A stretch of 64,000 bases of DNA from Haloflavibacter putidus (GTDB lineage: Bacteria; Bacteroidota; Bacteroidia; Flavobacteriales; Flavobacteriaceae): contig NZ_VIAR01000001.1 of NCBI RefSeq assembly GCF_006546625.1, positions 186,001-250,000 of the forward strand. The letters run 5' to 3'. Positions 5,412 to 61,430 of the stretch are shown piece after piece; position 1 is the stretch's first letter, and each line of letters opens with the position of its first letter. Position numbers and translations under genes: made by a program. The notes under the pieces were generated by a model. The model saw only the letters and a program-made list of their open reading frames with translations. It ran no database searches and was not told where the DNA came from.

Positions 5412-6137
5412 ATGAGAACATTTGCTATTGGAGACATTCACGGCGGTTTAAAAGCCTTAAAACAAGTTTTAGAACGCGCTGAAGTCACAAAAAACGATCG
5501 ACTCATTTTTTTGGGCGATTATGTAGACGGTTGGAGCGATTCTGCCAATGTTATAGGTTACCTAATAAATTTATCGCAAGACCACGATTGTATTTTTATA
5601 AAAGGCAATCATGACGATTTAGTAGCCTATTGGTTGCGAACCAGAAAAAAATACGACCAATGGTTAGAACACGGCGGTCGGTCTACCTTAAATGCTTACG
5701 AAGACTTTACGGAAACAGAAATTAAAGAACATCTACATTTTTTAGAAAACACCAAAAACTACTATATAAACGAAGAAAACCGTTTGTTTCTACATGCAGG
5801 TTTCGCCAATATTCACGGTCCGGCGCAGGAATATGAAGATTATGTTTTTTATTGGGACCGCACTTTGTGGGAAATGGCTTTGGCACTTGATAAAAACCTA
5901 GAAGAAGACGATATATTTTATCCTAAACGTTTAAAACTCTTTAAGGAAATTTTTATCGGGCACACCCCAACAACAAGAATTAACAAAGAAAGTCCGGTAA
6001 ACGCTGCCAATGTATGGAATGTAGATACCGGCGCCGCTTTTAAAGGCAAACTTTCTATGATAAATGTAGAAAGCAAAAAAGTGTACCAAAGCGAACCGGT
6101 TTATCAACTCTATCCTGATGAAAAGGGAAGAAATTAA
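5412..6137 (+). CDS. PPP-family metallophosphatase
   Basis: The 241-residue protein carries the complete PPP/calcineurin-like metal-site series: GDIHG (7-11), GDYVDG (35-40), GNHDD (65-69), a later HAGF, and GHTPT near 191. This is the layout of bacterial protein phosphatases and of ApaH-like diadenosine tetraphosphate hydrolases. I cannot choose between protein and nucleotide substrates. It has no signal peptide and should be cytoplasmic. Length is typical. The 3' end lies just before an outer-membrane protein gene whose true start is at 6157. Confidence 0.9.
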   Translation: MRTFAIGDIHGGLKALKQVLERAEVTKNDRLIFLGDYVDGWSDSANVIGYLINLSQDHDCIFIKGNHDDLVAYWLRTRKKYDQWLEHGGRSTLNAYEDFTETEIKEHLHFLENTKNYYINEENRLFLHAGFANIHGPAQEYEDYVFYWDRTLWEMALALDKNLEEDDIFYPKRLKLFKEIFIGHTPTTRINKESPVNAANVWNVDTGAAFKGKLSMINVESKKVYQSEPVYQLYPDEKGRN

Positions 6138-6156
6138 TCAAAAAAACAATTTTATC

Positions 6157-6723
6157 ATGAAAAAAATAGCTCTTTTAAGTTCGTTATTTTTTCTGGGTTA
6201 CACAATGCAAGCCCAAGAAAACGACTTTCCGCAAAATGAAGTAAAATTAAACATTGCCAACACCATAGCCATTGCTTCGGTAGAGGTTGGTTACGAACGT
6301 TTTATTGGTTTTAACCAGTCTATTGGCGCAGAAATTCTATTTAACGACCGTATAAATTATCATTCGGAGTCCGGCTCCAGAAAATTTAACACCAACAGTT
6401 TTAAGCTTGGGTACAATTATTATTTTGGCGAAGAAACTCCCGGCTCTGGTATTTATGCTAATCCATTTTTAAAATACCGTTTTGGGGATTTTGAACAGGA
6501 TAAACAAATACCTACCGGCCCGGAAACTACAGAAATAAAAACTGTAGAAACAGATATGAATACTTTTATGGTAGGAATTGGCGCCGGTTATAAATGGAAT
6601 TTCAACAACAAATTTGTAATTGGACCTTATGTCAATATTGCCCGTAATTTTAGCGAAGAGGTAAAAGATCGTTTTTCTGCAATTGAGTTTAATGCCGGTT
6701 TAACGGTTGGGTATAGATTTTAA
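6157..6723 (+). CDS. small outer-membrane beta-barrel protein
   Basis: I chose ATG 6157 because it places a signal peptide at the N-terminus (Lys-rich start, hydrophobic core, cleavage after MQAQ). The upstream in-frame ATG at 6118 lies inside the phosphatase gene. The mature part of about 170 residues is rich in alternating aromatic/polar strands and ends in an aromatic (VGYRF), as outer-membrane barrels do. Repeated strand-like blocks such as VGYERFIG and FKLGYNYYFG support an 8-strand barrel. Ligand or role is unknown. Two short hairpins follow the stop. Confidence 0.8.
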   Translation: MKKIALLSSLFFLGYTMQAQENDFPQNEVKLNIANTIAIASVEVGYERFIGFNQSIGAEILFNDRINYHSESGSRKFNTNSFKLGYNYYFGEETPGSGIYANPFLKYRFGDFEQDKQIPTGPETTEIKTVETDMNTFMVGIGAGYKWNFNNKFVIGPYVNIARNFSEEVKDRFSAIEFNAGLTVGYRF

Positions 6724-6787
6724 TTGTACAGAAAACAGGTTTCATCCTAAAAAAACGGATGTTCGTTTTATTTAAAATTTTTCTTTC

Positions 6788-6832
6788 AAAATGCTTTATA
6801 GTTTTAGTTTTCAACCTATAAAGCATTTTTTT
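6788..6832 (+). terminator. stem-loop with T-run abutting the next start codon
   Basis: Two 14-base arms (6788-6801 and 6816-6829, AAAATGCTTTATAG and its complement) surround a 14-base loop and run into seven Ts at 6826-6832. The ATG at 6833 follows directly. As a structure it is a typical intrinsic terminator for the beta-barrel gene, but its position makes it a possible attenuator of the four-gene operon that follows. Confidence 0.6.
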
Positions 6833-7699
6833 ATGAAATTTATTCTAATTCCCTTTTTGATTTGTTGCAGTCTTTCGCAAGCTATTGCACAAACAACTTT
6901 TAAAGATCCCGATGTGTTTTTACGGAAAGGAGAACAAGTGCCGCAAGTACTTTTGGTTGGCAGTTTTCATTTTAATTATCCGGGCTTAGACGCTCATAAA
7001 ACCACAGAAGAAGATAAAATTAATATCTACTCAAAAAAACGACAACTAGAACTGCAAGAATTGCTGGATTACATCAGTAAATTTAATCCAACAAAAATTA
7101 TGGTCGAAGCCGGGAAAAATACTGGTTATCTCTTTGCCAATTACAAAGCTTATAAAAACGGGACAGAAAAATTACGCGCCAGCGAAACCAGCCAAATAGG
7201 AATGCGATTGGTAAATCGTTTTAATTTGGATACAATTTATGGCGTAGATGCTCCCTCTTTGCTGTATGAATTGCAGCTGAAGAAAGATACATCAAGCCCA
7301 GAAACTTATATAGACACTATAACTAAAAGGCATTATTTTGGCGGAGAAGATAAAATTTCCAAACGCTACTACAAATACTACCGCTATAAAGATCAAGTAG
7401 AAGTTAATACTACTTTATTGCAAAGTTTTAAATATATGAATTCTGAAAAAGCATTGAATCGCGGTTTTGGCGCCTATATTGCCGGCGGCCAATTTACTTC
7501 TGATGCAAACGAGGGACCCGACGCACTTTCTATGCTTTGGTTAAACCGAAATCTTAGGATTTTTAGAAATATTCAAAAAATTGAAAATACTAAAAACGAC
7601 CGCATTTTGGTTTTATTTGGTGCCGGACACGTGCCTATTTTAAAATGGTTATTTGAATGTACTCCAGAATATGAGCTCGTAGAATTCAATAACCTTTAA
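6833..7699 (+). CDS. exported TraB/Tiki-fold protein, DUF5694-like
   Basis: From ATG 6833 the product is 288 residues and begins with a signal peptide ending SQAIAQ. A longer frame from ATG 6791 would add 14 residues encoded within the hairpin. The protein has the spaced motifs of the TraB/Tiki superfamily: GSFHF early (about 39-43), an acidic VEAG after the second strand, and GAGHV near the C-terminus. Known members (GumN, TraB/PrgY, Tiki) are metal-dependent peptidase-like proteins, and this one resembles the DUF5694 branch. It should act in the periplasm. Its stop is 2 bp from the next gene, a distant paralogue. Confidence 0.72.
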   Translation: MKFILIPFLICCSLSQAIAQTTFKDPDVFLRKGEQVPQVLLVGSFHFNYPGLDAHKTTEEDKINIYSKKRQLELQELLDYISKFNPTKIMVEAGKNTGYLFANYKAYKNGTEKLRASETSQIGMRLVNRFNLDTIYGVDAPSLLYELQLKKDTSSPETYIDTITKRHYFGGEDKISKRYYKYYRYKDQVEVNTTLLQSFKYMNSEKALNRGFGAYIAGGQFTSDANEGPDALSMLWLNRNLRIFRNIQKIENTKNDRILVLFGAGHVPILKWLFECTPEYELVEFNNL

Positions 7700-7701
7700 A
7701 A

Positions 7702-8640
7702 ATGAAAAATTTAATTCTCATTTTTTTTGTTATTTATATTGGTCCGGCTTCTTTAGCGCAAAAGAAAGAAGTTTTGTTAATTGGAACTATGCATACGGTT
7801 CCAAAAATTGTAAAAAACAGTTATAAAACCCTTTTAAAAAAAGTTTTAGATTACAAGCCAGAAGCTATTTATGTTGAAAGTCCGCGTGCGCAAGATTCCA
7901 TAAGTTGGCAATATTTAAAAGACGGCTGGTCTAAAGCCTATAAAGAATTTTATTTTTTGTCAGATTCGCTTCGGCATAACTTTTCCTTCCGTAAAGAGAA
8001 ATTAAACCGGCTTTTGAAAAAAAGTTTTAAGAATTTAACGGCAAGCCAATTAGATACTCTAATTTACTCTTTTGGTTATCTAAGAGATTACGCCAATTAT
8101 AAATTTTACCGTTATATTAAAAAACACGGTTCAAAAGGTACTAAAAAACCAAGCCGACACGAAGATGGAGATTTAACCGCAAAACTCGCTTTGCAATTAA
8201 ATATCAAACGTTTACAATCTATGGACGACCAGCAGACCAATAAAAAATACCATTTGGCTTGGAAAAAATGTGCTCAAGAAGGAAAAGAAAATGGCGATAA
8301 TAAAATAAACCAAAAAATCAATAAAAAGCAGTATAATCGTGGAATAATTCCGGCACTTTTTGGCAGATTGGGCTGGTATGTGAATAAGAGAAAATCTCTA
8401 ACAAGATTGCATAAGCTTGCTGCATTTACCTATGTGAAAAACAAAACAAAAAGTTGTACGTTGGGCGAAAAGTATTGGAATAAAAGAAACCAACGAATGG
8501 CAAAAAATATAGGAAGTCAAATAAAAGCCAATAGGGCGAAAAAAAATATCGTGATCGTTGGTGCAACGCATATCATAGGTTTGGAGAAATCTTTAAAAAA
8601 GGACTTTCCGGAGATTAAAGTAACACTATTAGAAGATTAA
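7702..8640 (+). CDS. second exported TraB/Tiki-fold protein
   Basis: The 312-residue product has a signal peptide ending PASLAQ, then GTMHT (about 27-31), YVES (near 57-60) and GATHI at the C-terminal end, the three conserved points of the TraB/GumN/Tiki fold. It shares little sequence with its upstream neighbour beyond these motifs, so the pair is an old duplication or a recruitment rather than a recent one. The middle is very Lys-rich. It lies 2 bp after the DUF5694-like gene and 8 bp before a histidine kinase gene, clearly in the same operon. Peptidase activity is inference. Confidence 0.7.
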   Translation: MKNLILIFFVIYIGPASLAQKKEVLLIGTMHTVPKIVKNSYKTLLKKVLDYKPEAIYVESPRAQDSISWQYLKDGWSKAYKEFYFLSDSLRHNFSFRKEKLNRLLKKSFKNLTASQLDTLIYSFGYLRDYANYKFYRYIKKHGSKGTKKPSRHEDGDLTAKLALQLNIKRLQSMDDQQTNKKYHLAWKKCAQEGKENGDNKINQKINKKQYNRGIIPALFGRLGWYVNKRKSLTRLHKLAAFTYVKNKTKSCTLGEKYWNKRNQRMAKNIGSQIKANRAKKNIVIVGATHIIGLEKSLKKDFPEIKVTLLED

Positions 8641-8648
8641 TTTAACAA

Positions 8649-9680
8649 ATGAATAAAAAACAAGAAATACGATACCATCTTATTTTTTGGATACTTTTTA
8701 TTATCATGGAAGTATTCTCTGATATTGTCTTAAAAGATAATTTAAACTCTTTTAACCTCTATTTACTGCATAATATTGAGTTCTTGCTTTTGCAAATAGG
8801 TGTTTTCTATATCGTTTATTCTTGGCTTGCGCCGAAGTGCGTTCCGCAAAAAAAATGGGGAAATTTGTTTTTGGGTTTATTAGGCATTCTCTTACTATTT
8901 GCAGCTTTACGCTATATTTTTGAAGAAGTAATACTGTATGCTATCACTGGTTATCACAATTATTACCCCGACTCATTACGGCCGCTTTATTATATTTTTG
9001 ACAATTCTTATTACGCTTTTCGGATTTTTTTACTGGCCTTGGTGTTTTATTTTGTCAAGCATTTGCTTAACACCAAACAAGAAATCAATGCGTTAAAATT
9101 AAAGAAAAAGCAAGCCGAATTGCGCGCATTAAAATCGCAATTGAGTCCGCATTTTCTTTTTAATACACTCAATAGTTTTTATGCAGAGGCTTTGGATGTA
9201 AACAGCAAATTGAGCGACGATATCTTAAAACTTTCAGAAATGCTTCGTTACATCACCTACGAACAAGAAAAAGAGTTTGTATTCTTAAAAGAGGAATTGC
9301 GCTTTCTAGAAAATTATATCAGTTTGTTTCAAAGAAGGTTTGACGATAATTTGTTTATTGAAAAATCTTTTCCTAAAAACACCAAAAACTATAAAATACC
9401 TGCTTTGCTTTTGCTTCATTTTATAGAAAATACTTTTAAGCATGGGGTTTTAGATAATCGTGAAGAGCCTGTTTTTCTAAAGCTTACCATTATGGACGAA
9501 TATTTAGAATTTAGTTTAAACAACGCAATTAAAACCGACCAACACTTAGATGTTGGCGGTATAGGTTATAAAAATATAGAACAACGTTTGCACTTATTGT
9601 TCAAAAAAACCTATGAACTAAAGCATTTTCAAAAAGAAAATAGGTATTTTGTTTTCTTAAAAATTCCGCTAAAAAACTAA
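8649..9680 (+). CDS. LytS/YehU-type sensor histidine kinase
   Basis: The 343-residue protein has four predicted membrane helices (about 10-28, 37-60, 71-95, 121-141) with almost no extracytoplasmic domain. A short coiled coil follows, then the His_kinase core with phospho-accepting His168 in LSPHFLFNTLN. The ATPase domain has N-box residues in HFIENTFKHG. This class pairs with LytTR regulators, and the next gene, 1 bp away, is one. With so little sensor surface it probably senses a membrane-embedded or accessory-protein signal; the two exported TraB-like proteins in the operon are candidates. That link is inference. Confidence 0.9.
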   Translation: MNKKQEIRYHLIFWILFIIMEVFSDIVLKDNLNSFNLYLLHNIEFLLLQIGVFYIVYSWLAPKCVPQKKWGNLFLGLLGILLLFAALRYIFEEVILYAITGYHNYYPDSLRPLYYIFDNSYYAFRIFLLALVFYFVKHLLNTKQEINALKLKKKQAELRALKSQLSPHFLFNTLNSFYAEALDVNSKLSDDILKLSEMLRYITYEQEKEFVFLKEELRFLENYISLFQRRFDDNLFIEKSFPKNTKNYKIPALLLLHFIENTFKHGVLDNREEPVFLKLTIMDEYLEFSLNNAIKTDQHLDVGGIGYKNIEQRLHLLFKKTYELKHFQKENRYFVFLKIPLKN

Positions 9681-9681
9681 T

Positions 9682-12279: not shown

Positions 12280-12312
12280 CAAAAATAGACGGTTATTCCT
12301 CATCTGCTACAA
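12280..12312 (-). promoter_or_regulatory. candidate promoter of the ALDH7 gene
   Basis: Read on the minus strand, TATTTTTG (12287-12280) matches the Bacteroidota -7 consensus TAnnTTTG. It is preceded by TTG at 12312-12310 with 22 bases between. It overlaps the 3' end of the dioxygenase gene, so the dehydrogenase may be transcribed on its own. A second, weaker TATTTTCG lies just downstream at 12278-12271. Confidence 0.45.
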
Positions 12313-12835: not shown

Positions 12836-13139
12836 AATAAAGTTTTTTTGATTGCTTAAATTTACTAAAAGCATTTTAATAGCTCTAATTTCTATTTGTA
12901 ATTTGGGCAGCTTTTGGCCAAAAAAGACCAAAACCGCGCTATCCGTTACAATTCCGTTTGTGTTGTTGCTGTTTTTCAATGTTTTCCGTAAAGATAAAAG
13001 CAGTCTACCTTTTGCTGTGGCTAATTGAAACCAAAAAAAGCACAAGCCGGGATTTTCACTACTATCGCTGCCGCAAAAAAATGACAGACTTTCCACCTTC
13101 CGTAAAGAAAAAATAAAAAACTTCTTATAGCGTTTAAAA
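12836..13139. promoter_or_regulatory. divergent intergenic region, dioxygenase / isoaspartyl peptidase
   Basis: This region of about 300 bp between divergent genes holds two direct copies of the word TTCCGTAAAG (12984-12993 and 13098-13107) and a perfect 12-base palindrome TTTTGGCCAAAA (12912-12923). I find no convincing full promoter. A 267-codon reading of the dioxygenase frame covers most of it and is probably not translated. Confidence 0.4.
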
Positions 13140-17300: not shown

Positions 17301-19838
17301 ATTACTTTTCCATCGGGAGAAGGTGGTAATGCTTTAATTAGTATTGAAAATGGCAGCAAAGTCTTATCGCAACAATGGGTAGAAACCAAAAAAGGAGAGA
17401 CGCAAGTAAAAATTCCGTTAAGTAAAGAAATGGCGCCCAACATTTATGTAAATATCACGTTATTGCAAGCACACGAACAAACCAAAAACGATTTACCAAT
17501 CAGACTTTATGGGGTTATTCCAATTTTAGTAGAAAACCCAAACACCAAGCTAGAACCAGAATTACAACTCCCTAAAAGCATAAAGCCAGAACAGAATTAT
17601 TCCGTAAAGGTATCTGAAAAAAACAACCGTGCAATGACCTACACGTTGGCCGTGGTAGACGAAGGTTTGTTAGATCTTACACGTTTTAAAACGCCCGACA
17701 TTCACCAAGCTTTTTATGCCCGCGAGGCATTGGGCGTAAAAACCTTTGACATTTATGATGATGTGATAGGGGCTTTTACCGGAAGTGTAGACAATATTTA
17801 CGAAATTGGTGGGGGAGATTTGGCTGCCGGCGCAAAAAACAGAAAAGCAGATCGTTTTAAACCAGTTGTAAGTTATTTAGGCCCTTTTTATTTAGAAGCC
17901 GGAAAAACCGCAACACACAAATTATACATGCCAAATTATATAGGCTCTGTACGCGCAATGGTAGTTGCTGGCAATGAGGAAGATACAGCTTACGGAAATG
18001 CAGAAAAAACGATTTCTGTAAAAAAACCATTGATGGTATTAACCTCGCTTCCGCGGAAATTATCGCCGGGAGAAAAAGTAACGCTGCCGGTAACCGTCTT
18101 TGCGATGGAAAAAAAGATAAAAAATGTGCAGGTAAAGGTAAAAACAGATGCTGCTTTAAAACCTCTAAAAGAAACCAAGCAAAATATACGTTTTAACGAA
18201 GTAGGCGAACAAATTGTAAACTTTGAATTTGAAGTAAATTCTGCCAGTAAGCCACAAAACATACAAGTTTTTGCCTCAAGCGCCGGCGAAAAAGCAAAGT
18301 CTTTTGTAGAGATAGATGTAATTAACCCAAATCCGGTAACCCATAAAGTGCAAACTAAAGCCTTAAAAAACGAGCAAGAGGCTAGCTTTACATTTTCACC
18401 TTTTGGCGTTTCTGGAAGTAATAGCGCCAATCTTGTAGTTTCTACTTTACCACCAATTAATTTGGAGAAGCGTTTAGATTTTTTAATCAATTATCCGCAC
18501 GGATGTTTAGAACAGATTATTTCTGGTGCTTTTCCACAATTATACCTCAACGATTTGGCAGAAATTACCTATGATAAAAAACAAGAAATTAAAGAAAACA
18601 TAGAAAGTACTTTACAAAAATTAAACGATTATCAATTAGCTTCGGGCGCATTTGCGTATTGGCCAGGAGGTAATTCTCCAGACGATTGGTCTACTACTTA
18701 TGCGGGACATTTTATGCTGGAAGCCAAACAGAAAGGTTATGTTTTGCCGGTAAGTTTGCTTTCTAATTGGTTGTCTCACCAAAAACGTAAAGCCCAACAT
18801 TGGCGTAATTCGTATACATCGTATAACAGTAGTCTAAATCAGGCTTACCGTTTATATACTCTAGCTTTGGCAGGACAACCGGCATTGGCCGCAATGAACC
18901 GTTTGCGCGAATCTAATGAGATGAACACAGCTGCAAAATGGCGTCTGGCTGCTGCCTATGCTCAAAATGGTAAAAAAGATATTGCCAACGATTTACGTTC
19001 TACAACCAATATTAATTTTGACGAAAGTAAAAACAATAAGTTTACCTACGGTTCTGCATTTAGAAACAAAGCAATGGCATTAGAAACTTTGGTTTTATTA
19101 GAAGACAAAAATCAGCTAGAATTGGCACAATCTTTAGCCAAAGGCTTGTCTTCGCAAAAATGGTACAGCACGCAAGAAACGGCCTATGCCTTGTTGGCGT
19201 TATCTAAAATGGCAGTAAAACAAGATGAAAAAGCTATAAATGTGGGCTATATCCTAAATGGAAAAGAATTTAATGCTAAATCTGATAAAAGTTTGGTTAG
19301 TAAAAAGCTCCACTTGAAAGCAGACGAAAATAAATTAAACCTGACAAATCATAATAATCAGATGGTTTTTGTAACCTTGACCCAAAGCGGGAAGTTACCG
19401 GTTGGAAAAGAATTACAAGAACAACGCAATTTGCAAGTAAAAACACAGTTTGTAGATGCAGAAGGCAGCAAACTAAACATTAAAAATTTACGCCAAGGCA
19501 CAGAAATTACGTCAAAAATAACAATTACCAATACCGGATTAGACGCTATTAAAGACGTAGCATTAACACAACTTTTTCCAAGTGGATGGGAAATTGTAAA
19601 TACCGGATTTACCAATTTTGGAAACGAGCAAAACACCAATTATACGTATAAAGACATTCGGGATGATAGGGTGAGTTTTTATTTCGATTTGGATAAAAAA
19701 CAAACAAAAACCTTCCGCGTAAAGCTAAACGCTTCCTATTTGGGCAACTATTATTTGCCGGGAACGCAAGCAGAAGCCATGTACGATAATAACTATTTTG
19801 CCCGTAATAATGGAGTTTGGGTAAAGGTAATAGAGTAA
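14301..19838 (+). CDS. alpha-2-macroglobulin family lipoprotein, YfhM-like
   Basis: The 1845-residue protein starts with a lipobox (IIFTTC-type, Cys near residue 20) and consists of repeated macroglobulin beta-sandwich domains. It has the central segment GLLDLTRFKTPDIHQAFYAR, and a thioester motif in YPHGCLEQ near residue 1397-1404, followed by an alpha-helical toroid with YAGHFMLEAKQKG. The reactive Cys-Gln bond is used to trap attacking proteases in the periplasm. The gene is 34 bp from pbpC. That pairing is known from Escherichia coli, where a2M is proposed to guard the cell when the wall is breached and PBP1C repairs it. Length is somewhat above the E. coli homologue. Confidence 0.93.
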   Translation: MRFYYFTLLFIISLIFTTCKDDDTQKTDNLYEYKDYISYHTNGRHSVAAPIKIKLNKQVAQYELSQEIPSNLIAISPEINGKLYIENGNTLLFQPKENLKPDTKYILSINLKEVYGNLPKGLEKYTFSFKTIAPNFKIETGNLQSYSKEKQYLFGEIETADVINLIQAKQLLIAKQDGKTLPISWGNNAATSTIFHFKIDSISRKKQKDQISLSWNGKPIGAEHKGKRNFKIAGQDNFKIVDIHSRLDEEVSLAINFSDPINPQQDFQGLVNIENQKNLRFEVDNNVLHVYPKKRVTGKLKVEVFSGLQNLQGATLQQNFSELIGFQELKPAVRMLSKGVILPASTNTPIHFETVNLRAVDVRIIKIYQDNILSLLQTSNLYNTYNIRRVGRKIAQKTIRLKNTNSFNTSNWQAHAINLSNFIKADPGAVYQVEISFRKNYSTYKCGNQDKNEQKPVVQTEKAYPNEQYREEQYWNNELYNWRQTPYNWQEKDNPCHASYYQEDRFARTNILGSDLGLLVKESNKNTYNVVTTNLLKGNREIGVKISLYDFQKQLIKKATTKQEGIAKVTTNRKAAFIIAKKGNNYAYADLDGGNALSLSKFDVSGQELRRGLKGFLYTERGVHRPGDSIHLTFVLNDKENPIPQEHPIQLSVTDARGRLVLEENLRETKTSRKAKNGFYYFPIATQKNDPTGNWEAKISVGGANFTKTLKVATVKPNRLKINIDFDQEILKAEETIEGSLSAKWLHGAPARNLKAAINVELSPAPSAFPNYQNYIFTDPVRSFESIENKFLETQLSESGKVNFQKNIPLNTKAPGMLQANFLTKVFEGGGDFSMDVISKKLAPYPYFVGLQTPKTEKYDSYNTEEDINFKVLSLNDEAKPAANRELKVYAYKIEWRWWWNRGKDNLSRYENAEVHRAIKKTEITTNANGKATFSLNIPEREAGRYLIRIVDEASGHATGKLTYFYEDWHKNPSDAQSESAKMLVFSADKKAYKVGEEAVITFPSGEGGNALISIENGSKVLSQQWVETKKGETQVKIPLSKEMAPNIYVNITLLQAHEQTKNDLPIRLYGVIPILVENPNTKLEPELQLPKSIKPEQNYSVKVSEKNNRAMTYTLAVVDEGLLDLTRFKTPDIHQAFYAREALGVKTFDIYDDVIGAFTGSVDNIYEIGGGDLAAGAKNRKADRFKPVVSYLGPFYLEAGKTATHKLYMPNYIGSVRAMVVAGNEEDTAYGNAEKTISVKKPLMVLTSLPRKLSPGEKVTLPVTVFAMEKKIKNVQVKVKTDAALKPLKETKQNIRFNEVGEQIVNFEFEVNSASKPQNIQVFASSAGEKAKSFVEIDVINPNPVTHKVQTKALKNEQEASFTFSPFGVSGSNSANLVVSTLPPINLEKRLDFLINYPHGCLEQIISGAFPQLYLNDLAEITYDKKQEIKENIESTLQKLNDYQLASGAFAYWPGGNSPDDWSTTYAGHFMLEAKQKGYVLPVSLLSNWLSHQKRKAQHWRNSYTSYNSSLNQAYRLYTLALAGQPALAAMNRLRESNEMNTAAKWRLAAAYAQNGKKDIANDLRSTTNINFDESKNNKFTYGSAFRNKAMALETLVLLEDKNQLELAQSLAKGLSSQKWYSTQETAYALLALSKMAVKQDEKAINVGYILNGKEFNAKSDKSLVSKKLHLKADENKLNLTNHNNQMVFVTLTQSGKLPVGKELQEQRNLQVKTQFVDAEGSKLNIKNLRQGTEITSKITITNTGLDAIKDVALTQLFPSGWEIVNTGFTNFGNEQNTNYTYKDIRDDRVSFYFDLDKKQTKTFRVKLNASYLGNYYLPGTQAEAMYDNNYFARNNGVWVKVIE

Positions 19839-30782: not shown

Positions 30783-31868
30783 ATGGATTCCCGTAAAATA
30801 ATTCACGTAGATATGGATGCTTTCTACGCTTCTGTAGAACAGCTGGACAACCCGGATTTGCGCGGAAAAGCAATTGCCGTTGGCGGCGGAAGCAAGCGCG
30901 GTGTTGTGGCAGCAGCAAGTTATGAAGCGCGTAAATTTGGTGTAAAAAGTGCAATGAGCGGGGCATTGGCTGCCAAACTTTGTCCGCATTTAATTTTTGT
31001 AAAAACCCGTTTTGACCGTTACCGGGAAATTTCTAAAAGCATACGTTCTATATTTTTTGAATATACAGATTTGGTTGAACCATTATCTTTAGACGAAGCA
31101 TATTTAGACGTTACCCATAATAAAAAAGACCTTGGCAGTGCTACGCTTATCGCGGAAGAAATCCGTAAAGAAATAAAAGAAAAAACAGGACTTAATGCCT
31201 CTGCAGGAATTTCTATAAATAAATTTGTTGCTAAAATTGCCAGCGATTTTAATAAACCAAACGGACAAAAAACCGTGCATCCGGAAGAGGTAGCAGCATT
31301 TTTAGAGAAACTGGAAATTAGAAAATTTCACGGCGTAGGAAAAGTTACCGCACAAAAAATGTATAGTCTGGGAATTTTTACCGGGGCAGATTTAAAGAAA
31401 AAAGAGTTAGATTTCTTAGAAAAGCAATTTGGCAAAAGCGGTAAGCATTATTATAATGTAGTACGCGGTATACATTTGAGTGAAGTAAAACCGCACCGCA
31501 TTAGAAAATCTTTGGGTGCAGAACGCACCTTTACGGAAAATATATCTTCTGAAATTTATATCTTAGAAAAATTAGAACATATTGCAACGGAAGTAGAAAA
31601 CCGTCTTAAAAAACAGCAATTGGCAGGGAAAACCATTACTTTAAAACTAAAATATAGCGATTTTAGTATACAGACCAGAAGTAAAACCGTAGAACATTTT
31701 GTTGCCTCTAAAGAGGCTTTTTTAGAAATTGCAAAGGAACTTTTATACCAAGAAAAATTAAAAAATTCTGTCCGATTATTGGGTTTGTCTTTATCTAATT
31801 TAAATACCAATCTCCAAGATAAAAACGAGAGAAAAGATACTTACCAACAATTAAAGTTTAACTTCTAA
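30783..31868 (+). CDS. dinB: DNA polymerase IV
   Basis: The 361-residue protein is a Y-family polymerase. It has the first metal motif HVDMDAFYASVE (8-19), a YEARKFGVKSAM segment (47-58), the second carboxylate pair LSLDEAYLDV with Asp104/Glu105, and a C-terminal little-finger domain. It performs translesion synthesis in the cytoplasm. It is monocistronic and its stop overlaps the stop of the convergent PH-like gene by three bases. The C-terminal beta-clamp peptide is not obvious (the protein ends QQLKFNF, which may serve). Confidence 0.96.
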   Translation: MDSRKIIHVDMDAFYASVEQLDNPDLRGKAIAVGGGSKRGVVAAASYEARKFGVKSAMSGALAAKLCPHLIFVKTRFDRYREISKSIRSIFFEYTDLVEPLSLDEAYLDVTHNKKDLGSATLIAEEIRKEIKEKTGLNASAGISINKFVAKIASDFNKPNGQKTVHPEEVAAFLEKLEIRKFHGVGKVTAQKMYSLGIFTGADLKKKELDFLEKQFGKSGKHYYNVVRGIHLSEVKPHRIRKSLGAERTFTENISSEIYILEKLEHIATEVENRLKKQQLAGKTITLKLKYSDFSIQTRSKTVEHFVASKEAFLEIAKELLYQEKLKNSVRLLGLSLSNLNTNLQDKNERKDTYQQLKFNF

Positions 31869-32353: not shown

Positions 32354-32469
32354 ACTTTGAGAAATCTTCGCTTCTTTATTTATTACAATGGCTTATCGCT
32401 CTAGAGTTATTTGGCATCTACAAAATATATGCGTTTTATGTTTTCCGTAAAGGGAAATTATTAATGCAA
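32354..32469. other. spacer downstream of pyk with TTCCGTAAAG copy
   Basis: This 116 bp spacer separates pyk from the membrane protein gene. It holds one TTCCGTAAAG word (32443-32452), which also forms a small hairpin TTTCC/GGAAA around GTAAAG that might act as the pyk terminator. No gene is seen. Confidence 0.4.
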
Positions 32470-38109: not shown

Positions 38110-38296
38110 CGAAGTTTAAATTGCTTTACGGAAAAGCTAAACCTAATAAATTTTAGAATTTTTTCTTCCGTAAAGTTTAAATAATCAAGCCTTCTACTTG
38201 AAGGCTCTTTGGTAATTTTTAAGCTATTGTACTAAAAAACATCTTCCTATTAATTATTCCTTGAAAAACACCTTATATTTGCAAAAAACAACAAAC
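38110..38296. promoter_or_regulatory. spacer with inverted motif pair, weak terminator and pfkB promoter
   Basis: The spacer holds CTTTACGGAA (38124-38133) and its complement TTCCGTAAAG (38166-38175), flanked by TTTAAA on both outer sides, so it can fold into a stem with a 32-base loop. A second hairpin AGCCTTC/GAAGGCT (38188-38206) may end rnhA. TATATTTG (38274-38281) matches the -7 box for the kinase gene, although no TTG lies at the right distance. Confidence 0.55.
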
Positions 38297-44225: not shown

Positions 44226-47200
44226 TTGCAGCAAAACTCTCCTTTTAAAATTTACGATGCCTCGGCCGGCTCCGGAAAAACCTTCACGCTCGTTAGTCGC
44301 TACTTGAGTATTTTACTCTCAGAAAAACGTTTGGATGCCTACCAAAATATATTGGCTATTACGTTTATGAATAAGGCTGTGGCCGAAATGAAAAGCAGAA
44401 TTATAGATAGTTTGCGCGCTTTCGCGGAAACAAATTCTGCCGAAAAAACATCGCCGTTATTTAAGCAAGTACAAAGCCAAACCAATTTAAGCGCAGAGGA
44501 AATTCAGCAAAAATCAAAAAAAATATTAGAGCAAATATTGCACAATTATGCAGGCTTTGAAGTTTCTACAATAGATGGTTTTACCCACCGGCTGTTACGC
44601 ACGTTTGCCAAAGATTTAGACATACCCACCAATTTTGAAGTAGAGATGGACCAAGAAACCATCTTAACAGAAGCGGTAGATCGCATAATTGCAAAAGCTG
44701 GAAAAAACAAGATAATAACCCGGGCGCTAATTAATTTTGTTATAGAAAAAACAGACGACGACAAAAGTTGGGATGTAAGCAAAGATTTATTTAGTATTTC
44801 TAAGCTACTTATTAACGAAAACAATTTACCAGCCTTATTAAAATTGAGCGGTAAAAGCTTAACAGACTTTGAAAATTTTAAGAAAGAGCTAAATACAAAA
44901 TTGGCAGAAAACGAAAAAGCTTTAAGTCATTTGGCTGAAGGTTTTTTTGCTCTGTTGAATCAAAAAGGTTTAGAAAACAGCAATTTTAACAGAAGCTCAA
45001 TTCCTAACTATTTTTCTAAAATTTTGGCAAAAGAATTGCCCGCTCTTAGCAAAAACAAACCAAAATGGCAAGAAAATATTGCTACCCACCCACATTACAA
45101 AGGCGCAGAAAAAGAAGTAATAAAAGCAACTATGGATGCCATACAAGCAGAAATAGTTTCACTTTTTGAAAAAACCGAAAGCTTGGTAATAGAAAACAGT
45201 TTTTTACGAGATATTGCCAAAGACACAAGCTCGTTATCACTTTTAGCGGCAATTCAAGAAGAATTAGAAGTTTTGAAAAAAGAATACAACGCAGTTCTTA
45301 TTTCAGAATTTAACCAAACAATCAGCAAAAACATACAAGGCCAACCCACACCGTTTATTTATGAACGTCTGGGCGAACGGTACAAACATTTTTTTATAGA
45401 CGAGTTTCAAGATACTTCTATTTTGCAATGGCAAAATTTGATTCCGTTAGTTGGACACCAATTAGAAATGTTGGAAGGAAGCTTAATGTTGGTAGGAGAT
45501 GTAAAACAATCTATTTACCGGTGGCGCGGCGGGAGAGCAGAACAATTTTTACGACTAAGCAACCAAACCGATAAAAATTTTTCTGTACTACAAGAAAAAA
45601 TCTCTCTACAATACAATTTTAGGAGTGCGCCGCAAATAATAGAATTTAACAATGCTTTTTTTACCCACGCAGCACAATTTTTAAGCAAGCAAGAATACCA
45701 AGAGCTTTTTAAAAATGCTACCCAAGAAATAGGTAAAACCAACCAAGCAGAACAAGGTTATGTAAATCTACGTTTTTTAGAGGCCAATAATGTCGAAGAA
45801 AAAAACGAAGTTTTTCCGCAGGAAGTTTATCAAATTATACAAGACTTAGAAGAAAAAAACTTTGCAAAAAAAGATATCTGCATTTTGGTGCGAAACAAAA
45901 AAGAAGGCATTGCCATAGCCAATTACCTTAGCCAAAAAGACGTTCCAATAATATCTTCTGAAACTTTGTTGTTAAATAATGCGCCCGAAGTACGATTTAT
46001 AGACACATTGTTGCAGCTAAGTTTACAACCAGACGATAAAAATCTTCGCTTTGAAGTTTTAGACTTTTTATTTTCGCAACAAACAGATAAAGGGTTAAAC
46101 CATTTTCAATTTCAAAACAATAAACTAAACCTGCCTTTACCAGATTTTTTCAAAAGCCTTGAATCTATAGGAATTAACTTTGCGATAGAAAATTTTTATA
46201 ATTTACCACTTTATGATGCAGTAGAGTATAGTTTGCGCAGTTTTGGTTTAGCCAACACGAGCAACGCTTATTTACAATTTTTCTTAGACACCATTTACAC
46301 GTATACGCAAAAACACAAAGACGGTATACAAGGATTTGTAAATTTTTGGGGAAATAAGAAAGACAGCTTAAGCATTAGCGCTCCCGAAACTATTGATGCT
46401 GTACAAATATTAACCATTCATAAATCTAAAGGTTTAGAGTTTCCTATAGTAATTTACCCATATGCAGATGAAAAAATAAACGACACTAGTAAAGAGAAAA
46501 TATGGATAGATTTACCGCAAAATTTTAGTATTCCTACAGCACAAATAAGAGCTTCTCAAAAATTGCAGCACTACAAACCTGTCGTATCAGAAGCTTATCA
46601 AGAAGTACTAGAACAAACCGAATTGGATAATCTTAATTTACTATATGTAACTTTAACCCGCGCCAAACAGCAATTGTATGTTTTATCTACCTTAGATTTA
46701 AGCAAAAACAAAATAGAAAAAACAGAAAAGTTCTCGGGTATCTTTATAAATTTCTTAAAAAAACAGAATGCTTGGCAAGAAGATAAAAGCAATTATGAAT
46801 TTGGCAAAATACCTGGGGCAAATCTACAAAAGCAAAAGATTCAAACTCTTTCGGAAGATAATTTATTAAACTCTAGTTCTCCCTCAGCACATAATTTGGA
46901 AATAGTAACCAAATCTGGGGCTTTATGGGAAAGTCATGCAGAGAAAGCTATTGCAGAAGGTAATTTAATTCATGAATTATTAAAAACTGTATCTTACCAA
47001 GAAGATGTAGAAAAAGCAGTAAAAAATGCTATACAAACCGGACTTCTTCTAAAAACAGAAGCCGAGCAGTATTTAGATTTGCTTCAAAAAGTAAGTTTGC
47101 ATCCACAACTAAAACAGTATTTTAAAAAAGATTATCAAGTCTTTACGGAAAAAGAAATTTTAAATCAAAAAAAGTTTAAACGTCTAGACCGTTTGTGTAT

Positions 47201-50164: not shown

Positions 50165-52870
50165 ATGAAAGCATTTTTAGAAGAAGTACTCGACTACTTG
50201 ATTACAGAGCAAAAAATAGACCTTGCACAAACTAGTTTTATCTTACCTAGTAAAAGAGCAGGAAATGCTTTAAAAGATCATTTAAAGCAAAAAGTTTCGG
50301 GTACTATCTTTAGTCCAGAGGTATGGAGTATAGAAGAGTTTTTAAATGAAGTGACGCAACTTTCTGAGTTAGACAACACACAAAGTATTTTTAGTTTTTA
50401 TGAAGTATACACAAAATTAACCCCGCCTAAAGAAACCGAAGATTTTGAAACTTTTTATGGTTGGGCGCAAACTTTAATACACGATTTTAACGAGATAGAC
50501 CGGCATCTTATAGAAGTAGACAATTTCTTTTCTTACCTCTCAGATATACAGGAAATAAACCACTGGTCTACCCAAGATAACCAAACAGATTTAATAAAAA
50601 ACTATTTGCGTTTCTGGCGTCAATTACCAATTTATTATAAGCACTTTACCCAACAAATACTCAAAGCTGGTACCGCTTATCAAGGTTTGCAATATCGTAA
50701 AGCGGCAGAAACAATTTCTAAATTTTTAAACACTACAGATAAAAACTATATCTTTTTGGGCTTTAATGCTCTAAACAAAGCCGAGCAAGAAATAATTCAA
50801 AATGTTTTAGCAGCAAAAAAGGGTGATGTTTTTTGGGACATAGATAAAAGTTTTTTTGAAAATCAAAATCATCAAGCTGGCCTTTTTATAAGAGACTATA
50901 AAAAGAATTGGCCTTACTACGCACAAGAAAAGCAAAGTTTAAAGCAACTCTCTAATAACTACTCGCAACCTAAAAATATAAAAACTTATGCCGTTTCTCA
51001 GAATATAGGACAAGCAAAAAAAATTGGTGATATCCTTTCTAAGTTTTCTTTAGAGGAGCTAACAAAGACAGCTGTTGTTTTAAATGACGAAGCTTTGCTA
51101 TTGCCTATCTTAAATTCGTTACCTAAAAACGTAGAAAAGGTAAATATTACTATGGGCTTGCCTTTAAAAGATACGCCTTTAGCTTCTTTTTTTGAAGTGC
51201 TTTTTAACATACAACGTGAACAGCAAAAGAAAATTTATTACAAACACGTTTTAGAAGTTATAAACCATCCGTTTTTTATGCAGAAAATTGGCGACACCGG
51301 TTGGCAAACCCGCGCACGTATAATGCAAGAGAATTTGGTTTTTATTAGCTTAGAAGAGCTTCTAGAATTAACCGAAGACAAAACCAGTCATTTACTAAAA
51401 CTATGTTTCTCAAAATACGATAAAAACCCTATTATTTTTCTGCGTGCTTTAAAAGAAATATCTCTCGCCCTTCGGGTAGATGATGTAGAAAACTTTAGGT
51501 TAGAAACAGAGTATCTTTTCCATTTCCACAAACTATTCAGTAAATTAATTAACCTACTTCAAGACAAGAATAGCTTAACAAACATTAATGCTTTACATCG
51601 CGTTTATAATGATTTACTTACTAGCGAAAACCTAGACTTTAGCGGCTCTCCCTTTAGTGGCTTACAACTTATGGGAATGCTAGAAAGCCGCGTTTTAGAT
51701 TTTGAAAATGTCATCATCAGCTCGGTTAACGAAGGTATTTTACCAGCCGGAAAAAGCACCAATTCTTTTATACCGTACGATTTAAAAAAAGCGTATAAAC
51801 TTCCTACTTATAAAGAGAAAGACGCAGTTTACACCTATCATTTTTACCATTTGTTGCAACGTGCCAAAAATGTGTTTTTATTATATAATTCAGATCATAA
51901 CAGTACAAACGGCGGTGAGAAAAGTAGATTTATAACCCAGTTAGAAATAGAACGAGAGGTAAAAAACATAAGTGTTAGTCCGCAAGTGCCCGCCATAAAA
52001 CAATTATTAAAAGAAATAGAAAAAACGCCGGAAGTTCTCGAAAAAATAAAATCTATTACCAAATCCGGTTTTTCTCCTTCGGCTTTAACCGCCTACATCC
52101 GTAATCCTTTAGATTTTTATAAACAATATATTTTAGAAATAAAAGACAGTCCGGAAGTAGAAGAAACTGTAGCTTATAATACTTTAGGCAGCATTGTTCA
52201 CGATAGTTTGGAAAAATTATTCAAACCTTTTGAAAATAAAAAACTCACTGTTGCACACCTAAAACAAATGTTGCAAACTTATAAAGAGCGTGTACAAACA
52301 GAATTTGCTGCCAACTATAAACAAGCGCCGATAAACAGCGGTAAAAACTTACTTATTTACGAAGTTGCCAATCGTTACGTTAAAAATTTTCTTAGCAATC
52401 AACTGCATGATTTAGAAAATAATAACGATATAGAAATTTTAATTATTGAAGAAACTCACAAAAAAAATCTTCCTATAGAAAAGCTAAATTTTCCGGTAAA
52501 TTTAAAAGGAAAAGTAGACCGCGTAGATCGTTTAAATGGCATGCTTAGGGTAGTAGATTATAAAACCGGAATGGTAACTGCAAAAAACCTAAAAGTTACC
52601 AATTGGGAAAATTTAATTACAGATTACGATAATAGTAAAGCTTTTCAGGTACTAACTTATGCCTTTTTAATACAAGATAAACTACCAGATAACAAGTTTG
52701 AAGCCGGTATTATTTCTTTACGGAAAATGAAGGAAGGGTTTTTCCATTTTAAGAACAACAATATTACTATTATTAATGCAGAAACCTTAACTTTATATGA
52801 AAATGCAGTAAAAGAATTAATAACTGAAATTGCGAATCCGCAAATTCCGTTTATAGAAAAAGAAGTTTGA
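50165..52870 (+). CDS. AddB-like PD-(D/E)XK nuclease without Fe-S cysteines
   Basis: The 901-residue protein has a degenerate SF1 helicase-like N-terminal part (ILPSKRAGN near 26-34 stands where AddB has a Walker A, with no GKT), a conserved ESRVLDFENVIISSVNEGILP segment near 508-528, and a C-terminal nuclease domain with VVDYKTGM near 797-804 and QVLTYAF. The protein contains one Cys only, so the four-Cys iron-sulphur site of classical AddB is missing; at the first site IRNPLDFY replaces the Cys. It is probably the partner of the AddA-like protein encoded at 44226. Confidence 0.85.
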   Translation: MKAFLEEVLDYLITEQKIDLAQTSFILPSKRAGNALKDHLKQKVSGTIFSPEVWSIEEFLNEVTQLSELDNTQSIFSFYEVYTKLTPPKETEDFETFYGWAQTLIHDFNEIDRHLIEVDNFFSYLSDIQEINHWSTQDNQTDLIKNYLRFWRQLPIYYKHFTQQILKAGTAYQGLQYRKAAETISKFLNTTDKNYIFLGFNALNKAEQEIIQNVLAAKKGDVFWDIDKSFFENQNHQAGLFIRDYKKNWPYYAQEKQSLKQLSNNYSQPKNIKTYAVSQNIGQAKKIGDILSKFSLEELTKTAVVLNDEALLLPILNSLPKNVEKVNITMGLPLKDTPLASFFEVLFNIQREQQKKIYYKHVLEVINHPFFMQKIGDTGWQTRARIMQENLVFISLEELLELTEDKTSHLLKLCFSKYDKNPIIFLRALKEISLALRVDDVENFRLETEYLFHFHKLFSKLINLLQDKNSLTNINALHRVYNDLLTSENLDFSGSPFSGLQLMGMLESRVLDFENVIISSVNEGILPAGKSTNSFIPYDLKKAYKLPTYKEKDAVYTYHFYHLLQRAKNVFLLYNSDHNSTNGGEKSRFITQLEIEREVKNISVSPQVPAIKQLLKEIEKTPEVLEKIKSITKSGFSPSALTAYIRNPLDFYKQYILEIKDSPEVEETVAYNTLGSIVHDSLEKLFKPFENKKLTVAHLKQMLQTYKERVQTEFAANYKQAPINSGKNLLIYEVANRYVKNFLSNQLHDLENNNDIEILIIEETHKKNLPIEKLNFPVNLKGKVDRVDRLNGMLRVVDYKTGMVTAKNLKVTNWENLITDYDNSKAFQVLTYAFLIQDKLPDNKFEAGIISLRKMKEGFFHFKNNNITIINAETLTLYENAVKELITEIANPQIPFIEKEV

Positions 52871-54876: not shown

Positions 54877-54877
54877 C

Positions 54878-54904: not shown

Positions 54905-55078
54905 CTTTATAATTTTATAGTGTTTTCCGTAAAGTTTACTGTATTTTTTTTGAAATAAAGAAATTTTCTATTGTCTCTGTATAATGAACATTTTACGCCA
55001 AACGTAAACGTTAAAGCATCTTTATTTTGATTGGCTTCAAATAAAAGGTCGTAATTTTGCAGCAAATTTTGGTCTAAA
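54905..55078. promoter_or_regulatory. spacer with motif copy and SCO promoter
   Basis: TTG (55031-55033), 18 bases and TAATTTTG (55052-55059) give a promoter for the SCO gene. One TTCCGTAAAG word is at 54925-54934. A 65-codon minus-strand frame covers the stretch, but I do not regard it as a gene. Confidence 0.6.
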
Positions 55079-55827: not shown

Positions 55828-55833
55828 TAAGCT

Positions 55834-56067: not shown

Positions 56068-56069
56068 CT

Positions 56070-58172: not shown

Positions 58173-58179
58173 ATTAAAA

Positions 58180-58314: not shown

Positions 58315-58608
58315 AACTTATTACCCTTACCGGGGAATTTCAAAACCCTAATTTTTTTCAAGCTTTCTAAAAGCTAACAGCACAAGTTTATACCTGACAA
58401 TATTTTTTAAATGATGCTATTCTTTACGGAAAGTCTAGGCGTAAAAAGATAAACTTTATACTATTATAAAGAAACCGTTACTCCTTCCGTAAAGAAATTA
58501 AAAATGTTTGTGTTTATTACCAAAAAACATACGACTAATAACTTCCAAAAAAATAAAAAAACGAGTAGTTTAGCTTTCTTAACTTCAACTTCAAAAAAAA
58601 GTATTTAA
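58315..58608. repeat. spacer with inverted CTTTACGGAA pair
   Basis: The 294 bp between the feo operon and hemJ contain TTCTTTACGGAA (58420-58431) and its complement TTCCGTAAAGAA (58485-58496), which can pair over 12 bases with a 53-base loop. No strong promoter is seen. A 34-codon frame (58504-58608) ends directly against the hemJ ATG and is probably fortuitous. Confidence 0.55.
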
Positions 58609-59145: not shown

Positions 59146-59189
59146 AAAACCTTATAGCGCCTACGGCTTCCAAAATTTAAAAACAACGT

Positions 59190-60641
59190 ATGAATTTTCT
59201 CAAACGCTCTTTGCGCACCCGCATATTTTTGAGTATGATATTTTTGGTAATCGGGGCTTCTGTTTTAATAGCCGGCGTTACCATTTATCAATATCGCGAA
59301 GAAGCGCGTGTGTACCAAAAAGACAAATTAAAACGTAAAGAAGCTTCTATACGAGCCAGTATTAATTACGAAATAAAAACCACTACTTACCCGGTAGATA
59401 CAGAGCATATTCCGCTTATTTTTAAAGAGAAAATTTACGAATTAAAAAATATTCACGACACAGAAATTAATATTTATGACCTTGACGGAAAATTATTAAA
59501 ATCTTCTAAAGCCAACTTTTTTAGAGACACCGCTTCTACCAAAATGCCGACTTATGCTTTAAAAGGATTAGAAAATGCCTCTAATAAACGCTTTATAAAA
59601 TACCATTTAGACAACGAAAACGATTATATTTCTTCGTACACTTATATAACCGATAAGTATTTTAAACCGCTTGCTATTCTCAATTTACCACATATTGAAG
59701 ACGACGGTTTTATAGACAGGCAACTGCGCAATTTTTTAGTCATCTTGGCACAAGTTTATTTGGTTACACTTATCGCGGCTATTTTGTTGGCTTACTTTTT
59801 ATCTAAATACATAACCAAATCTTTAAAAACCGTTAGTCAAAAAATACACAGCACAAGATTAGACCGCAAAAACAAAAAAATAGTTATTCAAGACGCTTCA
59901 CAAGAAATAAAATTCTTGGTAGAAGCCTATAACTCTATGATAGACGAGCTGGAAGAAAGCGCGGTAAAATTAGCTACCAATGAGCGGGAGCACGCTTGGC
60001 GCGAAATGGCAAAACAGGTCGCACACGAGATTAAAAATCCCTTAACGCCAATGCGACTTAGCGTACAAAGTTTTGAAAGGCGTTTTGATAAAAACGATCC
60101 GGAAATTGAAGAAAAATTAAAAGAATTTAGCACTTCTTTAATTCAGCAAATAGACACGATGAGCTCTATAGCATCGGCTTTTTCTAATTTTGCCAAAATG
60201 CCCGCCCAACAAAACGAAACGCTAAACGTGCCTAAAATCGTAAAATTGGCGGTAGATATTTTTAACGAAAGCTATGTAGAATTCCGTACAGAAAAAGAAG
60301 AGGTTTTTGCCAAATTTGATCGTACCCAACTTATACGCGTGGTAACCAACTTGGTAAAAAATGCCATTCAGGCCACCAAAAGTCAAGAAAACCCAAAAGT
60401 TACCGTAAAGGTGGCAGAAGACCAAAACCAAGTTTGTATCTTTATATTAGATAATGGGATGGGAATATCAGAAAAAAACAAATCGCGTATCTTTGAACCT
60501 AAATTTACGACTAAATCTAGCGGAATGGGCCTAGGTTTGGGGATAATTAAAACCATTATAGAAGCTTACGACGGAAGCATAGATTTTACTTCTCAAGAAA
60601 ATGTGGGCACAACTTTTATCGTTAAATTTCCTAAAAAATAA
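59190..60641 (+). CDS. NtrY-like sensor histidine kinase
   Basis: The 483-residue protein has two membrane helices (about 12-32 and 178-203) enclosing a periplasmic sensor of about 145 residues. A HAMP domain follows. The HisKA segment has His in QVAHEIKNPLTPMRLSVQSFER (near 277), with the LTPMRL signature of NtrY, and the ATPase domain ends in GMGLGLGIIK. The sensor matches nothing that I recognise. No response regulator gene lies near. It is preceded by hemJ and followed 6 bp later by an enoyl-CoA hydratase gene. Confidence 0.9.
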   Translation: MNFLKRSLRTRIFLSMIFLVIGASVLIAGVTIYQYREEARVYQKDKLKRKEASIRASINYEIKTTTYPVDTEHIPLIFKEKIYELKNIHDTEINIYDLDGKLLKSSKANFFRDTASTKMPTYALKGLENASNKRFIKYHLDNENDYISSYTYITDKYFKPLAILNLPHIEDDGFIDRQLRNFLVILAQVYLVTLIAAILLAYFLSKYITKSLKTVSQKIHSTRLDRKNKKIVIQDASQEIKFLVEAYNSMIDELEESAVKLATNEREHAWREMAKQVAHEIKNPLTPMRLSVQSFERRFDKNDPEIEEKLKEFSTSLIQQIDTMSSIASAFSNFAKMPAQQNETLNVPKIVKLAVDIFNESYVEFRTEKEEVFAKFDRTQLIRVVTNLVKNAIQATKSQENPKVTVKVAEDQNQVCIFILDNGMGISEKNKSRIFEPKFTTKSSGMGLGLGIIKTIIEAYDGSIDFTSQENVGTTFIVKFPKK

Positions 60642-60647
60642 AAGAAA

Positions 60648-61430
60648 ATGAACTATAACAACATTAGCATTAGCAACCAAAACGGCATTTCTTATTTAAT
60701 CATAGACAGACCAAAAAAGTTAAATGCCTTAAACCGCGAAACCCTGGCAGAAATACACCAAGCTTTTGAAGATTTTAAAACAGACGAAGCTACCAAAATA
60801 ATTATCTTAACCGGAAGCGGAGAAAAAGCCTTTGTTGCCGGAGCAGATATTTCAGAATTTGCTAATTACAGCGTTTCAGAAGGTAAAGACCTTTCTGCAA
60901 AAGGCCACGAAGAAGTTTTTGATAAAATTGCCAATTTCCATAAACCCGTAATTGCCGCCATAAATGGTTTTGCCCTTGGCGGCGGACTAGAATTGGCTAT
61001 GGCAGCACACTTAAGAGTAGCATCTGATAACGCAAAAATGGGCTTGCCAGAAACTTCTCTTGGCGTAATACCCGGCTATGGCGGTACGCAACGTTTACCA
61101 CAGTTGGTAGGAAAAGGTCGCGCTATGGAAATGATTTTCACCGCAAAAATGATAGACGCTAAGCAAGCGCTACAATATGGTTTAGTAAACCATGTAACCA
61201 CCCAAGAAGAATTAAAAGACTTTACGGAAAATTTAGCCAACAAAATCACCAAAAATTCGATGGTAGCCGTTGCGCAAGCAATAGAAGCTATAAACGCCAA
61301 TTATAAAGATGGCGTGAATGGTTTTGAAAAAGAAATAGAGAATTTCGGGAAGAGTTTTGGTACCGAAGATTTTAAGGAAGGTACACAAGCTTTTTTAAAC
61401 AAAAAGAAGCCAGAATTCCCAAATAAGTAA
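60648..61430 (+). CDS. enoyl-CoA hydratase/isomerase family protein
   Basis: The 260-residue protein has the crotonase oxyanion segments AFVAGADISEF near 62-72 and NGFALGGGLELAMA near 105-118. LPETSLGVIPGYGGTQRLPQLVG near 130-152 carries the catalytic Glu. It hydrates short-chain enoyl-CoA, most likely in beta-oxidation or amino-acid breakdown. It shares the transcript of the sensor kinase and ends before a strong terminator. Confidence 0.94.
   Translation: MNYNNISISNQNGISYLIIDRPKKLNALNRETLAEIHQAFEDFKTDEATKIIILTGSGEKAFVAGADISEFANYSVSEGKDLSAKGHEEVFDKIANFHKPVIAAINGFALGGGLELAMAAHLRVASDNAKMGLPETSLGVIPGYGGTQRLPQLVGKGRAMEMIFTAKMIDAKQALQYGLVNHVTTQEELKDFTENLANKITKNSMVAVAQAIEAINANYKDGVNGFEKEIENFGKSFGTEDFKEGTQAFLNKKKPEFPNK

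Follow-up and report, generated by a model that had tools for sequence, protein, structure and literature searches.

Why does a single 10-nucleotide word recur across a bacterial genome? The question is raised by a stretch of 64,000 nucleotides from Haloflavibacter putidus (contig NZ_VIAR01000001.1, positions 186,001 to 250,000; C11:186001-250000 in our numbering), here called the window, in which the word CTTTACGGAA is present in 15 exact copies. The pyruvate kinase encoded in the window is 81 and 82% identical to those of its nearest named relatives, Mesonia phycicola and M. mobilis, and the comparisons below draw on a set of 16 Mesonia genomes that includes the H. putidus genome itself (2,923,547 bases in 53 contigs) and its sister genome, G211. 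An initial annotation of the window had offered three options: an uptake-signal-like word, a recombination or nucleoid-protein site, or the remnant of a dispersed repeat. The first of these fits best, given the density of the word, its occurrence in both orientations and in coding as well as intergenic DNA, its conservation and its dialects in related species. With a probability of roughly three in four, we read CTTTACGGAA as a word resembling the DNA uptake sequences (DUS) of the Neisseriaceae, belonging to a naturally competent Mesonia species and read at the cell surface.

The word is far more abundant than composition would allow. All 15 copies claimed for the window are present, 14 of them at the positions given and one starting a nucleotide earlier (47141, not 47142). 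Matches with at most one mismatch number 33 in the window, against a mean of 6.8 in shuffled sequence, and none of 100 shuffles scored as high. Nor are the hits confined to the window: the whole genome holds 746 copies, 376 forward and 370 reverse, or one per 3.9 kb. The same word written backwards, which served as a composition control, occurs 8 times (4 forward, 4 reverse). In a sample of the H. putidus genome, exact and one-mismatch copies stand at 126:150, where 55.5 of the latter are expected and the backwards control gives 65. The ratios published for the uptake words of two Neisseria species, 1:1.15 and 1:1.45, are close to this (PMC3630211). The copies in the window, each compared with its counterpart in G211, are:

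5705..5714, plus strand: coding; changed in G211
7987..7996, minus strand (TTCCGTAAAG on the plus strand): coding; changed in G211
12984..12993, minus strand: upstream of a 3-hydroxyanthranilate dioxygenase domain, probably intergenic; unchanged in G211
13098..13107, minus strand: intergenic; unchanged in G211
17600..17609, minus strand: coding; unchanged in G211
31529..31538, plus strand: coding; unchanged in G211
32443..32452, minus strand: intergenic; unchanged in G211
38124..38133, plus strand: intergenic, inverted pair with 38166; unchanged in G211
38166..38175, minus strand: intergenic, inverted pair with 38124; unchanged in G211
47141..47150, plus strand: coding, inside an AddA/RecB-like gene; unchanged in G211
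52716..52725, plus strand: coding, inside an AddB-like gene; unchanged in G211
54925..54934, minus strand: intergenic; unchanged in G211
58422..58431, plus strand: intergenic, inverted pair with 58485; unchanged in G211
58485..58494, minus strand: intergenic, inverted pair with 58422; last base in an alignment gap with G211
61220..61229, plus strand: coding; unchanged in G211

Eight of these copies had been called intergenic. Open reading frame (ORF) calling places seven between genes and the eighth, at 12984, inside an ORF call with a GTG start (12293-13096); the family match of that ORF begins only at residue 88 and the copy lies upstream of it, so that this copy is probably intergenic as well. 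On a larger scale, mechanical ORF calling over 478 kb of the genome, 85% of it coding, assigns 90 of 134 copies to genes (in about 407 kb) and 44 to intergenic DNA (in about 71 kb, or some 15% of the sampled DNA), an intergenic density about 2.8 times the genic one.

Codon usage does not account for the coding copies. In a sample of about 0.52 Mb, window included, ORF calling yields about 438 kb of coding DNA with 89 copies, against 3.4 in 20 synonymous shuffles and 3.0 in 100; the count is thus nowhere near a codon-aware expectation. All five stop-free frames are enriched, with 36, 19 and 10 copies in the sense frames and 20 and 4 in the antisense frames, where the 100 shuffles predict 1.96, 0.50 and 0.24, and 0.16 and 0.13, respectively. 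One peptide motif therefore fails to explain the coding copies, as the initial annotation had argued from the window. That the readings FTE and ALRK recur might be taken to mean that the word is an artefact of codon usage or of a peptide motif, but the shuffles, the enrichment in every open frame, the intergenic excess and the finding that CTTTACGGAA lies at or near control in most genomes of the same family leave this explanation a negligible probability.

The word is also conserved beyond its surroundings. The aligned part of the window is 89.5% identical to G211, and 12 of the 15 copies are unchanged there, the share among aligned 10-mers as a whole being 38.6%. Taking all aligned samples together, G211 preserves 14 of 17 H. 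putidus copies but 24 of the 102 10-mers that flank them (Fisher p 5e-6); in the opposite direction the figures are 15 of 17 and 26 of 102. Control words could not serve in this comparison, with only 0 to 4 sites aligned. Five Mesonia genomes at a greater distance have 2 to 4 alignable places each, and none of these places carries the exact word.

Intergenic copies show no strand polarity. When the leading strand is guessed from the local GC skew of draft contigs, a crude stand-in that limits the test, they divide 22/22 in H. putidus and 14/12 in G211, and by gene direction they divide 19/25 and 13/13. These figures bear on the idea of a Chi-like site at which recombination is processed by the AddAB-like nuclease encoded in the window. 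The initial annotation had pointed to such proteins as a possible lead, and AddA-like (44226-47366) and AddB-like (50165-52870) genes are indeed present, and one copy of the word per 3.9 kb resembles the density of Chi in Escherichia coli; nothing was found, however, that links the AddAB-like proteins of the window to CTTTACGGAA. Moreover, Chi words are 5-8 bp long and skewed with replication, whereas CTTTACGGAA is 10 bp long and unskewed between genes in two genomes. A Chi-type role is disfavoured by this want of intergenic polarity, and we regard it as very unlikely.

The same evidence has to be set against a site that has nothing to do with uptake and is read inside the cell by a nucleoid protein or by one that organises or segregates the chromosome. 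Such a site would be consistent with hundreds of copies on both strands, in coding and intergenic DNA alike, and conserved relative to their flanks. The words known to act in segregation or at the terminus have a polarity or are limited to a region, and nucleoid-protein sites are unlike words that shift between species of one genus. CTTTACGGAA departs from both patterns, since its intergenic copies are unpolar, its spacing is random in the sampled stretches and the word shifts within the genus, as described below. We consider this explanation unlikely.

Beyond the 10-mer, likeness between copies ends, and only weak base preferences follow. The clearest are found in intergenic copies, with T at positions -4 to -2 and A behind the word, and in a scarcity of C at the next position (6 of 190 copies, H. 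putidus and G211 together); there are further weak columns. This boundary makes the remnant of a dispersed repeat a poor fit. Some intergenic copies do form close inverted pairs (38124/38166 and 58422/58485), as parts of a regulatory or terminator element might, or remnants of a mobile repeat. Against this, 90 of the 134 sampled copies are genic, pairs less than 150 bp apart in the H. putidus and G211 samples are inverted in 8 cases and direct in 7, with no hairpin pairing in these samples, and no wider repeat unit accompanies the word. An origin of this kind appears highly improbable.

What most recalls uptake words is that the word changes between related species. Across the Mesonia set, CTTTACGGAA reaches 804 copies in G211, 746 in H. 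putidus, 263 in G206, 255 in G200, 70 each in G053 and G208, 69 in G212 and 27 in G207, and falls to between 4 and 18 in eight genomes (controls 5 to 18). A variant, CTTTACGGAT, is most frequent in G053 (169 copies, control 10), G212 (162, control 12) and G208 (154, control 9), compared with 102 in G211, 97 in H. putidus, 61 in G206, 37 in G200, 29 in G207 and at most 12 in the other eight (controls over all 16 genomes, 5 to 18). The degenerate word CTTVRCGGAA is most frequent in G200 (423, control 23) and G206 (341, control 31), followed by G211 (168), G207 (145), H. putidus (143) and G201 (84), with 36 to 54 in the other ten (controls over the set, 16 to 49). On the pyruvate kinase tree, the eight word-bearing genomes, weak G207 included, lie on one side with a support of 82, and the other eight lie opposite. 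Counts in 198 other genomes of the family, as the initial annotation had recommended for related genomes, reach a maximum of 70 (G053, itself a Mesonia, control 16), followed by 59 in G114 (control 29), 46 in G077 (control 21) and 38 in G094 (control 14); a few genomes show about a twofold excess and most are at or below control.

Several further words of the genus were observed in the same comparisons. Candidate weaker dialects are TACAGGAA/TTACAGGAA in G202 and TTCAGAAA/TTCAGCAA-type words in G203, G199 and G201, at about 2-3 times expectation in genes and more between genes. In M. mobilis, 8-mers of the TTGCTGAAG type reach at most about three times the codon-shuffle expectation, and an intergenic excess of related words remains.

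A cousin of the word is found in other genera. In a locus of about 21 kb from Patiriisocius marinistellae the word CTTCGGAAAT stood out, and in 81 kb of that genome the more general CTTCGGAA occurs 20 times in coding DNA, against 2.0 in codon shuffles, and 13 times between genes, with 28 of these 33 copies reading CTTCGGAAAT. The related word CTTCGGAAA was counted in 46 genomes, namely those of 43 of 80 pyruvate kinase relative loci and three Mesonia. It exceeds its control at least fourfold in nine of the 46, a share biased upward because eight genomes were chosen for a locus with at least four CTTCGGAA; four of the nine were so chosen and five were not. These nine, with controls in brackets, are P. 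marinistellae with 967 copies (42), UBA3611 with 774 (82), UBA4166 with 736 (100), a Psychroserpens metagenome-assembled genome (MAG) with 605 (54), isolate 3-490-G with 467 (83), Aequorivita lipolytica with 442 (75), P. marinus with 440 (42), a Zunongwangia MAG with 365 (67) and a Marixanthomonas MAG with 313 (68). Five more genomes show a 2.1 to 2.6-fold excess, and nine have less than half as many copies as their control, including a Dokdonia MAG (4 against 68) and two Psychroflexus (30 against 101 and 20 against 89); counts in the three Mesonia lie close to their controls (41, 54 and 41 against 38, 43 and 39). That CTTTACGGAA-type words and CTTCGGAAA are related by descent is a guess.

Two other words that were high in several loci of about 20 kb, CTTATGCTATGG and AACTTAACCT, were rejected as dialect words. 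They appear to be part of one repeat near the pyruvate kinase gene, which occurs 3-6 times per locus in L007, L016, L019 and L028, from four genera, and in two of the genomes concerned independent stretches contain no copy of either. In the locus of the Dokdonia MAG in which CTTCGGAAA is nearly absent (L025, 21 kb), GCTTTCGCGA, half of a palindrome, was seen six times.

How does CTTTACGGAA compare with established uptake words? The DUS of the Neisseriaceae is a short word present in hundreds to thousands of copies with many single-base variants, and its eight dialects differ between species (PMC3630211). CTTTACGGAA shares this character of a short, abundant word with single-base variants and species dialects, and like known uptake words it combines codon-independent abundance, both orientations, intergenic enrichment and dialects that differ by small changes. 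It differs in being another word, in another phylum, with fewer copies, and in being known from sequence alone. The uptake signal sequences (USS) of the Pasteurellaceae have A/T-rich flanks, a further likeness. Their core, too, is short and exists in two versions within the one family (PMC3630211); the USS itself is unrelated to CTTTACGGAA, and its reader is predicted to be a minor pilin (PMC12616744). A 2013 paper described the requirement for a short uptake word as unique to Neisseria and Pasteurellaceae (PMC3630211).

If CTTTACGGAA is an uptake word, free DNA carrying it would be captured on the cell surface by a receptor that reads the sequence, and imported, would enter the cytoplasm via ComEC, and would recombine with DprA and RecA assisting. 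Because word-bearing DNA would be taken up preferentially, chance copies would spread by transformation and damaged copies would be restored, and the word would accumulate on both strands, within genes and between them. Drift in the preference of the receptor would then draw the word after it and give rise to dialects in related species. The bacterium would accordingly be competent, and CTTTACGGAA would raise its uptake of DNA.

The reader is probably not a pilin. In Neisseria the DUS is read by the minor pilin ComP. The ATPase family of type IV pili and type II secretion systems (PF00437), from which we judged this point, pilins themselves not having been searched for, scores over cut-off in four of the 16 Mesonia genomes (G212, G209, G205 and G204) and in neither H. 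putidus nor the remaining genomes, 12 in all; among the seven genomes with at least 60 copies of CTTTACGGAA, G212 alone has it. A pilus route is therefore unlikely in H. putidus. An alternative is offered by Riemerella anatipestifer, whose competence is pilus-less. There a transposon screen found ComEC, DprA, ComF, RecA and four others to be essential, including an outer-membrane protein with a carboxypeptidase-regulatory domain and, adjacent to it, a DUF5689/DUF5017 protein (PMC8459023). The Riemerella-type set further includes an HhH protein and a DUF1343 protein. ComEC, DprA and an adjacent pair of a DUF5689 lipoprotein and an outer-membrane protein are each found in all 16 Mesonia genomes; for the pair, DUF5689 and adjacency were checked in all 16 and full domains in H. 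putidus, and the likeness to Riemerella is by domains, not by alignment. In H. putidus the pair lies on contig C52:

9599-10945: surface lipoprotein (DUF5689 and choice-of-anchor J; PF18942, PF16409)
6780-9569: outer-membrane, TonB-dependent-receptor-like partner (PF13715, PF13620; Plug just under cut-off)

The lipoprotein matches the NCBIfam 'M949_1556 family lipoprotein' over its full length (E 1.4e-98, 330.7 bits, under the curated 475). In the literature M949_1556 appears, among the matches listed, in R. anatipestifer, and it is probably the same gene as RA0C_RS04920. Compared with the 14 Mesonia genomes other than G211, identity is 34-56% for the lipoprotein, 60-78% for the partner and 76-83% for pyruvate kinase; the lipoprotein thus evolves fast, the partner less so and pyruvate kinase least. 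We infer that the reader is this lipoprotein with its TonB-dependent-receptor-like partner; the pair is a candidate only. The altered words in relatives suggest that the group may recognise DNA of its own kind without the pilus used elsewhere. More tentatively, at somewhat less than even odds, Bacteroidota may possess a family of uptake-word dialects built on CTT..CGGAA (in Mesonia, Patiriisocius, Aequorivita, Psychroserpens and others), arisen in a further lineage and read by a fast-evolving surface lipoprotein and a TonB-dependent-receptor-like channel, not by a pilin.

Several observations weigh against the uptake reading, besides the crudeness of the strand assignment. Eight of the 16 Mesonia genomes have no clear word of the CTTTACGGAA type. 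ComEC and DprA prove little because they are common and widespread in bacteria, and the same searches score in 10 (ComEC) and 11 (DprA) of the 14 genomes taken as controls. The trees built from the two surface proteins disagree with that of pyruvate kinase, and genomes do not group in them by dialect: G199 has a pair close to that of the CTTTACGGAA group, yet the word is absent, and genomes of the CTTTACGGAT group carry the alternative class of pair despite nearly the same word. Domain and structure searches identified no DNA-binding domain in the lipoprotein or its partner. The best 50 matches of the lipoprotein model (pLDDT 81) include no nucleic-acid-binding protein and are headed by adhesin and carbohydrate-binding jelly rolls; the model of the partner (mean pLDDT 49) is too poor to use. 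Searching the PDB by sequence, we obtained a single match for the lipoprotein, in its C-terminal part, and no match for the partner. Coding copies follow gene direction (66 sense, 24 antisense), an excess that can come from the reading frames, possibly because one antisense frame is closed by a stop and the word is most often read as FTE. Spacing within the sampled stretches varies like random placement, and even spacing was looked for there and is absent. Finally, a literature search, scant on subscription journals and preprints, found no uptake or natural-competence study of Mesonia and did not find these words as text. Apart from even spacing and a known reader, CTTTACGGAA behaves in the tests applied as an uptake word would be expected to.

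If this reading is correct, Mesonia would add an independent case from a phylum in which the competent members studied so far have no pilus, and DNA self-recognition would be a repeated evolutionary outcome that is not bound to pilins. It might also explain why R. columbina prefers its own DNA (PMC7965970), the one source found to name an uptake signal sequence alongside Flavobacteriaceae. No uptake word is established in that species: the commonest raw k-mers reported by the authors were all A/T-rich, and their function was left open (PMC7965970). Species with differing words and differing surface pairs are at hand and would offer a direct route to the reader, and the word itself could aid the genetics of marine flavobacteria.

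Two sampled stretches of the H. putidus genome are free of CTTTACGGAA. L225 (G000:C4:45001-65000) contains a ribosomal protein operon, and the lack of copies is as strong protein constraint would predict. L224 (G000:C2:20001-40000), with a GC content of 32%, has short ORFs nearly all in one direction and a pair of similar small genes; its appearance is that of an acquired, cassette-like island. TCCGCGGAA, which forms part of the palindrome CTTCCGCGGAAG, is a second frequent word: in the H. putidus sample (the window and stretches L081-L100, L212, L224 and L225) it occurs 17 times in coding DNA against 0.6 expected, and twice between genes; its over-representation in coding DNA was also noticed in stretches of G211, G206 and G200.

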